9,559 nucleotides of DNA from Candidatus Fermentibacterota bacterium. GTDB lineage: Bacteria > JAFGKV01. The translations under genes and the position numbers were made by a program. Of this stretch, positions 6,225 to 9,559 are shown piece by piece. Position 1 is the first letter of the stretch, and each line of letters begins with the position of its first letter. The notes beneath the pieces were generated by a model. It ran no database searches. It was not told the origin of the DNA and was given only the letters and a program-made list of their open reading frames with translations. The stretch covers positions 1 through 9,559 of the forward strand of contig JAUXFG010000148.1 of the NCBI GenBank assembly GCA_030620115.1, written 5' to 3'.

Positions 6225-6435
6225 TAGCCCGAACTTCCCACCAACTTCCGGCTGTAACCGCCGATATGGCATCCCGCGTCTGACGCGGGACAGAGGATAC
6301 GCCTTCGGGCTTCCAGCTCGTAGAGCCTACAGCTCGGAGAGGGTCCTCAGTCGTCCCGCACCCAAAGCGTTGGGTCGGGACATTCAGAACCATTTCGGCG
6401 GTTTCGCTTCGAAACCCGGTGAGAAGTTCGGGTTA
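6225..6435 (+). repeat. Palindromic element copy B (207-bp core), intergenic, with nested hairpins
   Basis: The core 6227-6433 is bounded by TA at both ends. The left arm (GCCCGAACTTCCCACC from 6227) and the reverse complement of the right arm (ACCCGAACTTCTCACC) align for about 45 bp, through a shared AACCGCCGA-ATGG segment. Internal stems are TCCCGCGTC/GACGCGGGA (6272-6290), a two-part stem GTCCCG..CCCAA/TTGGG..CGGGAC (6353-6381), and GGTTTCG/CGAAACC in the right arm (6400-6416). The middle contains AGAGGATACGCCTTCG, also present in the copy near 8600. It lies between the DUF2442 gene and the lipoprotein leader and encodes no convincing protein. Confidence 0.85.
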
Positions 6436-7297: not shown

Positions 7298-7606
7298 TTG
7301 ACATGTGATAGATCGGAGAAGAGTGAGAGAACTGTAGGTGTGACCACAGCTGAGAGGATTGGGATCAAGAAAGGGATCCGGCAAGGGATGGAGAAGGGGA
7401 TGGAGAAAGGGATCCGACAAGGCCTCATGGAGGGCATCCTGCTGGCGCTTGAGCTGCGATTCGGCCGGGAGGGTTCCCGACTCGAAGGTCAGCTAGGGGG
7501 AATCAGGTGCCTTGAGGATCTCCGGAGCATCAAGGACCTTGCGAAGACAGTCCCCGATCTGGAGACACTGAAGAGAGAAATAATCAGGCTTTCCCCACAG
7601 GTATGA
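7298..7606 (+). pseudogene. C-terminal remnant of an Rpn / PD-(D/E)XK transposase-like nuclease
   Basis: The frame (102 codons from a TTG at 7298; in-frame TAG at 7274) carries T-T-A-E-R-I-G-I-K-K-G followed by a Gly/Lys/Gln heptad-like run (I-R-Q-G, M-E-K-G, M-E-K-G, I-R-Q-G). It ends with L-A-L-E-L-R-F-G and a helical tail containing L-R-S-I-K-D-L-A-K-T. This is the usual C-terminal end of Rpn-family (recombination-promoting nuclease) and related PD-(D/E)XK proteins, which are about 300 residues long with the nuclease domain first. The nuclease domain is absent, and no ATG or clear ribosome site precedes the conserved part. It is most likely decayed. A short expressed isoform is an alternative, since internal C-terminal products are known in this family. 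The charged repeat comes from a 36-bp DNA repeat. Confidence 0.7.
7368..7416 (+). repeat. 36-bp direct repeat inside the nuclease remnant
   Basis: AGAAAGGGATCCG occurs at 7368-7380 and again at 7404-7416. Between them are 12-bp subunits encoding four-residue units ending in Gly. Such length-variable Lys/Gly tracts are common in this family's C-terminal region. Confidence 0.6.
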
Positions 7607-8035: not shown

Positions 8036-9559
8036 TCATAGAGTTGTGCGGAGTCGAAACCGCGCCCAGCGTGCCCTGATCCTGCCCCACAGGGTGTGGC
8101 GGAAATATGGTTCGGGATCTGCCGGGCCGCGGTAGTACCAACGGCTCTGTAGATTCTCGGCGGGGGGCGATGACTCATCTGTCTCAATGCGGACACATGC
8201 AGGGAACAGGAGGCATCCGCGCAATGCCGGGTGGTTCCCCTGCGTGGCGTCCCAGGTGTCGAGGATCCATTGTTTTGGAGATTCCTCTTCGCGTGCGATC
8301 AAGGTGATCTGATGGGTTCCAGCGGGGAGTGAGTCGATGTCTACGGCAAAGCATCCGGGGGGTACTCTGCGCCATGTGGAAAGCGACCAAGGATCACGAT
8401 CTGGGACACGCTCATGCTGTTGCCCCACCCCAAAGACGGTGAGCCCCCAGATATTCCCGCGCACTCTCATCTGATAGTATTGATGCAGACGATTTGCCAC
8501 CAGACTGTCGCATGCGCGGGCTAGCCCGGACTTCTCACCGGTTTTCGTAGCGAAACGGCTGAGGTAGCGTTGCCTGCGAGGCTTGCGACCGAGGTCGTTC
8601 GAAGGCGTATCCTCTGCGATACGTCGAGGATGACCGACAAAGCGTAACGAGGCAGGCGGCGCCATATCAGCCGTTGTAGTAGAAGGCCGGTGAGAAATCC
8701 GGGCTTTACCATCGCCACAATCAGGATAGGCCCATCGGATTGCCTCCCATGTGTTTCCTTCGGTTGTTTTTCCCGTATCCCACCACCACCGGAAGAAGCT
8801 TTTCCTGAAATCGTCACGGAGCCACCAGATGTTTCTTGACGAAAGCTGGAGGACCACGAGGTCTTCCTCTTGCAGATCCATCGGGTCTTTCAATAGGGCG
8901 TAGTCTGCGTTGCCCGCCAAGTATGCCACTGTGGGGTGCAAGTAGAGTTGGGGCGAGAGCCAGATACGTTCATTCCCTGAACATTGTACCAGCCACCGGG
9001 CAAGTGCGCATTCCTGCCGATGGAAACCGTACAATGCCTCCTGGGCAGGGGTGAGCGTATCGAGGCTGCGGGGCCAGACAACGAAGTATCTGCCGAGGTT
9101 GAGCAGGGGAATGATGGTGAGTAGCAAGACGAGGATGAGGCGGCGGAGTTGGATGGCCGAGAGTCTCTCGCGGATCCAAAGCACTCCCTGGACGGCGAAT
9201 AGATATGGTAGCGGAAGAACACCCAGTGTCCGTAAGCAATGCGGCGCCTGCCGTTCTACCGAGAGGATGCCGGGGAGGAGCATGACACAGAGCCAGATCA
9301 TAAGAAGGATGTCGGTGCGCTTCCTTCTTCCCAGTGAAACAGCGAGACCAACAAGGAAGAGGAAGCCGGTGAGTAGATCCAACTGAGGAGCGCCGGCGAG
9401 ATTGTGTCTCCAGTTCTGATCACCTGAGACCACAAACATGCCCACATGCTTCAGCAGATTCCTGAAGAAGCCGGCAGCTATGTCGGGGGTTTCACTCCAG
9501 AGGGCCGCCATTGAGGCGCGTGCGGTGAATAGCTCGGGGTTATCCTTCCATGCCCACGC
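8036..9559 (-). CDS. GT-C / family 39-like membrane glycosyltransferase, C-terminal part, with in-frame repeat insertion (5' end outside window)
   Basis: The frame is open to the right edge, with 16 further codons before the ATG at 9511 that read D-N-P-E-L-F-T-A-R, so the start lies outside. Numbering from 9511 (491 residues), G-D-Q-N-W-R-H-N-L-A-G near 30-40 followed by L-D-L-L-T-G-F-L-F-L-V-G-L is characteristic of ArnT/PMT-like GT-C proteins. Hydrophobic segments lie near 45-60, 68-82, 97-112 and 124-140. A soluble region follows that includes R-N-I-W-W-L-R-D-D-F and, near 393-410, a D-I-D-S-L-P-A-G-T-H segment suggesting a beta-rich C-terminal domain. The predicted role is sugar transfer from a polyprenyl donor at the outer face of the membrane; substrate unknown. 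Residues 270-330 are encoded by a palindromic element that leaves the frame intact. Whether the protein is functional with this insert cannot be told. Confidence 0.75.
   Translation of the reverse strand, partial: AWAWKDNPELFTARASMAALWSETPDIAAGFFRNLLKHVGMFVVSGDQNWRHNLAGAPQLDLLTGFLFLVGLAVSLGRRKRTDILLMIWLCVMLLPGILSVERQAPHCLRTLGVLPLPYLFAVQGVLWIRERLSAIQLRRLILVLLLTIIPLLNLGRYFVVWPRSLDTLTPAQEALYGFHRQECALARWLVQCSGNERIWLSPQLYLHPTVAYLAGNADYALLKDPMDLQEEDLVVLQLSSRNIWWLRDDFRKSFFRWWWDTGKTTEGNTWEAIRWAYPDCGDGKARISHRPSTTTADMAPPASLRFVGHPRRIAEDTPSNDLGRKPRRQRYLSRFATKTGEKSGLARACDSLVANRLHQYYQMRVRGNIWGLTVFGVGQQHERVPDRDPWSLSTWRRVPPGCFAVDIDSLPAGTHQITLIAREEESPKQWILDTWDATQGNHPALRGCLLFPACVRIETDESSPPAENLQSRWYYRGPADPEPYFRHTLWGRIRARWARFRLRTTL
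8522..8706 (-). repeat. Palindromic element copy C (181-bp core), inserted in frame in a coding sequence
   Basis: The core 8524-8704 begins GCCCGGACTTCTCACCGG and ends with the inverse CCGGTGAGAAATCCGGGC. The arms pair imperfectly for about 50 bp, through CGGCTGA on one side and TCAGCCG on the other, to GCCTGC/GCAGGC. TA flanks the left end (8522-8523); the right flank is TT. Inner stems include CGTATC/GATACG. The middle on the minus strand contains AGAGGATACGCCTTCG, identical to copy B. Core plus a 2-bp duplication is 183 bp, exactly 61 codons, with no stop on the host frame. The encoded peptide is Arg-rich and unlike the flanking protein. Confidence 0.9.

Follow-up and report, generated by a model that had tools for sequence, protein, structure and literature searches.

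The best-known palindromic elements that lie in frame and are translated are those of Rickettsia, where they have often been tied to an intracellular, decaying lifestyle. As summarised in PMC10969869 from Ogata et al. (2000, 2002), the Rickettsia palindromic elements (RPEs) are about 100–200 bp long, palindromic, present in many copies and inserted in frame in unrelated genes. According to the same account, their hosts include housekeeping genes, a fixed peptide is left in the protein, and nearly half of RPEs were reported in open reading frames (ORFs), in frame. Bacterial MITEs with a TA target, such as Correia/NEMIS, RUP and ERIC, have terminal inverted repeats (TIRs) and TA ends and lack a transposase gene; they are mostly intergenic, with occasional in-frame fusions (PMC10969869, PMC2759123, PMC5896051), and such fusions of RU/ERIC have been reported in enterobacteria (PMC2759123).

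We analysed a stretch of 9,559 nucleotides, hereafter the window, for which an earlier note had proposed a palindromic element lying in frame in a glycosyltransferase gene and behaving like an RPE. The element, at 8524–8704, resembles RPEs in being palindromic, about 100–200 bp long and in frame in ORFs (the host gene and truA). Unlike RPEs, it has its own sequence, and its peptide matched nothing in Pfam or NCBIfam at E-values up to 10, although NCBIfam holds RPE models. Its family has a TA target duplication, only 7 of 113 copies lie in genes as against nearly half of RPEs in ORFs, and the host is outside the Rickettsiales, with same-family MAGs labelled as Ca. Fermentibacteria (Zod_Metabat.355) and Ca. 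Eisenbacteria (Prado127). The best reading is that the element works like RPEs but is not one of them by sequence or host. The proposed RPE-like behaviour gained a second case in truA, but this is not a Rickettsia element and most of its copies are intergenic.

The element also shares TIRs, TA ends, the absence of a transposase gene, a mostly intergenic location and some in-frame fusions with the Correia/NEMIS, RUP and ERIC MITEs. It differs from them in being almost wholly palindromic, whereas theirs are repeats at the ends only, and in that the same terminal repeat occurs in unrelated bacterial families. It is a MITE in that it is short, multicopy and without a transposase gene, with 16-bp TIRs and a TA duplication; an autonomous parent was not found. 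The terminal-repeat sequence had no relevant match in the paper texts searched. With REP/BIME elements it has in common the formation of hairpins, high copy number, mostly intergenic copies and RAYT-like genes in the genome, but its family is longer, has a TA duplication and conserved 16-bp ends, and shows no convincing linkage to Y1 genes. We consider it highly probable (about 0.87) that a non-autonomous, MITE-like palindrome inserted at a TA (YTAR) target in a glycosyltransferase-like gene, in the single open orientation and frame, and that frame-breaking insertions have been purged.

The element and its host gene

The palindrome is near-perfect and 181 bp long (8524–8704). Its left 16-bp TIR, GCCCGGACTTCTCACC (8524–8539, plus strand), pairs with the right one, GGTGAGAAATCCGGGC (8689–8704), which reads GCCCGGATTTCTCACC on the minus strand. 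The entire length folds as a single long hairpin (−94.3 kcal/mol against −58.4 ± 4.3 for shuffles, z = −8.3), and the stretch has 51 matches within its own genome. To the left lies TA (8522–8523), the target dinucleotide found family-wide, and to the right TT (8705–8706), a degenerate duplication partner with TT for TA. The 2-bp duplication claimed for this site is real for the family, with TA on both sides in 73 of the 113 complete copies, but degenerate at the window copy.

The host gene lies on the minus strand (8036–9559) with its 5′ part cut at the contig end. Its frame has no stop between 9559 and the terminating codon at 8036, leaving 507 codons visible and confirming that the palindrome is in frame. 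Element and TA together (8522–8704, minus strand) make 181 + 2 = 183 bp, and translation and orthologue alignment agree with the earlier arithmetic of 61 added codons (ARISHRPS...TGEKSGL). The insert occupies residues 286–346 of the open frame, which correspond to the previously given 270–330 when counted from the ATG at 9511. It is hydrophilic, with a predicted pI of 11.7, and the junction-spanning host sequence runs from AYPDCGDGK through IAEDTPSNDLGR.

Orthologues of 652–657 aa from two same-family genomes align on both sides, matching query residues 2–282 and 349–503, and lack exactly the insert. Identity to them is about 57% on both sides of the insert (57–58% over the N-terminal segment), and invariant motifs are kept. 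Because both flanks match one orthologous gene, a misassembly at the repeat is unlikely. Both sister genomes are without the element family; the exact end pattern was absent from them, and counts at 3 mismatches were near control.

The host protein itself had no Pfam or NCBIfam match, and a first scan of the genome contigs with it as query was empty. The PMT_2 match of an orthologue leads us to infer a GT-C-type membrane glycosyltransferase (PMT_2-like); this match speaks for the earlier identification but is weak. A low-confidence structure model built on three sequences (mean pLDDT 46.9) has the insert as its least confident, structureless part (pLDDT about 23–27). The model places an alpha/beta segment and helices before the insert and a beta-rich C-terminal domain after it (362–477, pLDDT up to about 79), in line with the predicted position ahead of a beta-rich domain.

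Family copies and the open reading frame

The palindrome is a member of a high-copy family with a few hundred copies in its own genome. The terminal repeat gave 661 matches in the 4.1-Mb genome at ≤3 mismatches, compared with 44 for a reversed control. Copies were sampled from about 1.26 Mb of stretches picked for carrying them, and the in-gene rate given below rests on this sample. It held 113 complete copies of 40–241 bp, and a profile search found 149 clusters amounting to 1.8% of the sampled sequence. The commonest lengths were 179, 181, 193 and 191 bp, the 179-bp class being the most frequent. The base outside the TA flanks is mostly a pyrimidine before and a purine after, which together with the paired TA flanks indicates a YTAR target with TA duplication. 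Double-change cells between the two arms numbered 48 in the 179-bp class (at most 27 in 200 column shuffles) and 11 in the 181-bp class (at most 8 in column shuffles). Compensatory changes above the shuffled level indicate that the hairpin itself is maintained, or repaired between arms. In the 193-bp class (L079, L100, L110, L113, L115, L127 and L134), the CAGGCGG of the 181-bp class is replaced by the mini-hairpin TCCCGCGTCGGACGCGGGA, which adds 12 bp and keeps the frame; the 191-bp class also exceeds the 179-bp class by 12 bp. Rfam had no match for the element, and nothing relevant was found in viral contigs searched with the terminal repeat or in plasmids searched with the element.

The terminal repeat leaves a single stop-free frame. 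On entering the element, one frame hits TAG/TAA at the junction; on leaving it, the TGA within GGTGAG closes one frame and TAG/TAA at the far junction closes another. The sole passing frame reads ARTSH...GEKSGL, provided that the length plus 2 is divisible by 3, as it is at 178, 181, 193 and 202 bp; the 179-bp class can never be in frame. This is why in-gene copies share one frame and one peptide, and it offers a simple, testable reason for a common peptide without selection on that peptide.

A second well-supported in-frame case is the only truA of the genome, which holds a 181-bp copy (...ALAGGRSL[61 aa]APCAPPQGLSFIG...). The insert lies between GGRSL and APCAPPQGL, apparently just before a conserved C-terminal motif, and the rest matches Thermus TruA DRRLAGPTAPAHGL gap-free in an ungapped register aligned by eye; at the insert site the Thermus protein reads ...DRRLAGPTAPAHGLYFVE. 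Five more copies are all read in the same frame as the insert in the host gene. C43, in a BNR/Sortilin-type secreted protein, adds 68 in-frame codons between signal peptide and domain, and in its orthologues the signal peptide is directly joined to the WESRGIGGGG domain. C155 adds 60 in-frame codons to a signal-peptide protein. C45 contributes 65 codons at the N-terminus of iPGM (Pfam iPGM_N, 2.6e-43), and C108 and C276 are likewise N-terminal, in a transglutaminase-like protein and a GT2 protein; any of these three may simply have inserted upstream and lengthened the ORF. Elsewhere, a nucleotidyltransferase-like gene is thrown out of frame by a 179-bp copy (L077, 443–621), and a phoU-like gene obtains its stop codon from the TA junction of a copy at its end (L116, 1123–1286).

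Copies are mostly intergenic. By a hexamer test, the empty site fell inside coding sequence for 7 of 113 copies, compared with 818 of 1500 random YTAR sites (55%). Such strong depletion from genes indicates that in-gene insertions are purged and that the in-frame ones have survived; they look like survivors of purging and not the product of targeting. The proposed sequence of events begins with a putative transposase, which would move the element in trans. Insertion would occur at TA (YTAR) in the one orientation and frame that the ends leave open: the TA(R) in each end creates a stop for one of the entry frames and one of the exit frames, and the TGA in GGTGAG closes the second exit frame. 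A length that makes a multiple of three with the 2 bp would keep the host frame. The gene would then encode 61 extra residues as a basic and probably disordered loop in the linker that precedes the C-terminal beta domain, presumably translated and compatible with continued function of the host protein. Frame-breaking insertions would be purged, so that the rare in-gene copies observed would be the harmless ones.

Alternative readings and candidate transposases

If the peptide were instead a useful module under selection, copies of a mobile peptide-coding element would be kept open for their encoded product. The ARTSH...GEKSGL frame is indeed open in 44 of 46 length-compatible copies, and not one of the 181- and 193-bp copies, intergenic ones included, has a stop in it. 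Randomised substitutions, however, predict 3.0 stops against the 0 observed (P = 0.047), and equal or larger deficits were seen in other frames. They extend to the 179-bp class, never in frame, which on one strand has 10 stop trinucleotides over all three frames compared with about 44 expected. Nor were non-synonymous changes specifically reduced in the ARTSH...GEKSGL frame, and the peptide matches no family. Since the randomised-substitution test gave no frame-specific signal, we make no claim that the peptide is under selection, and we regard a selected module as very improbable. It is also quite unlikely that the glycosyltransferase-like gene is a dying pseudogene carrying the insert in frame by luck. 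One third of open-orientation insertions would keep the frame by chance and most in-gene insertions have been removed; moreover, the first 214 residues of the host gene, beyond the contig end, could not be located in the rest of the assembly, and damage there is possible. The visible 507-codon frame is nevertheless intact, with similar identity to the orthologues on both sides and invariant motifs kept, and the same in-frame state recurs in the single-copy truA.

As for how the element moves, its own genome has four Y1_Tnp (RAYT-like) genes (L232, L233, L234 and L235), two of them with element fragments nearby, which could speak for a REP/BIME-type palindrome moved by RAYT (Y1 transposase) and not for a TA-inserting DDE element. 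Two of four is unremarkable, however, against a background in which 28% of randomly chosen points lie within 1.6 kb of a copy. REPs as generally described do not fit with a TA duplication, 16-bp terminal repeats and a length of about 180 bp, and we judge mobilisation by RAYT distinctly unlikely. For the TA-inserting MITE-like palindrome that we prefer, several candidate partners were considered. No IS630-type DDE_3 gene was found in its own genome. The DDE_Tnp_1 loci lacked matching ends, the one full-length IS1634-like element examined had terminal repeats different from those of the palindrome, and an IS1634-like gene in genome G119 had just one matching end nearby. Between distant end pairs, no transposase was recognised among ORFs read by eye.

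Other genomes and other copies in the window

The end pattern TARCCCGNAYTTCTCACC is expected by estimate about 0.002 times per genome, and its reversed control was zero in 386 of 386 genomes. It was present in 10 of the 386, with 243 matches in the element's own genome, 46 in G120, 32 in G274, 22 in G209, 11 in G343 and a few each in G279, G259, G232, G373 and G119. These carriers are related only at the domain level. Complete copies in the other carriers are mostly 176–178 bp long and have TA ends, with differing interiors. Several contigs of G120 and G343 end within about 150 bp of element ends; assemblies are broken by such repeats, so that the copy numbers given for these genomes are too low. 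In G343, contigs break off about 58 bp into the element, which suggests that copies there are identical. Judged by its end pattern, the family appears patchy and ranges over unrelated bacterial families, which suggests a mobile element that has become widely dispersed.

The host-gene copy is a well-supported case from an uncultured lineage with a 4.1-Mb genome, and together with the copy in the only truA it indicates that an intracellular, decaying lifestyle is not required. Mobile palindromes whose ends keep one frame open might, across unrelated phyla, introduce new loops, basic and disordered, into proteins that include essential ones. We consider a generalisation this broad unlikely; if true, it would mean that protein novelty outside the Rickettsiales has a general source in mobile palindromes.

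The window holds two more members of the family. A divergent copy of 207 bp is intergenic (6227–6433). The ORF at 7298–7606 has KGMEKGIRQG repeats and presumably resembles the C-terminal portion of nuclease-like proteins of the Rpn/PD-(D/E)XK type, whose N-terminal domain it lacks. The other copy, of 100 bp (2645–2744), lies between two co-linear SGNH-protein genes; the upstream one, for a 1168-aa protein, takes its C-terminal tail and its stop codon from this copy. The copy also holds the GTG start of the 409-aa ORF, and both frames would be continuous if it were removed.
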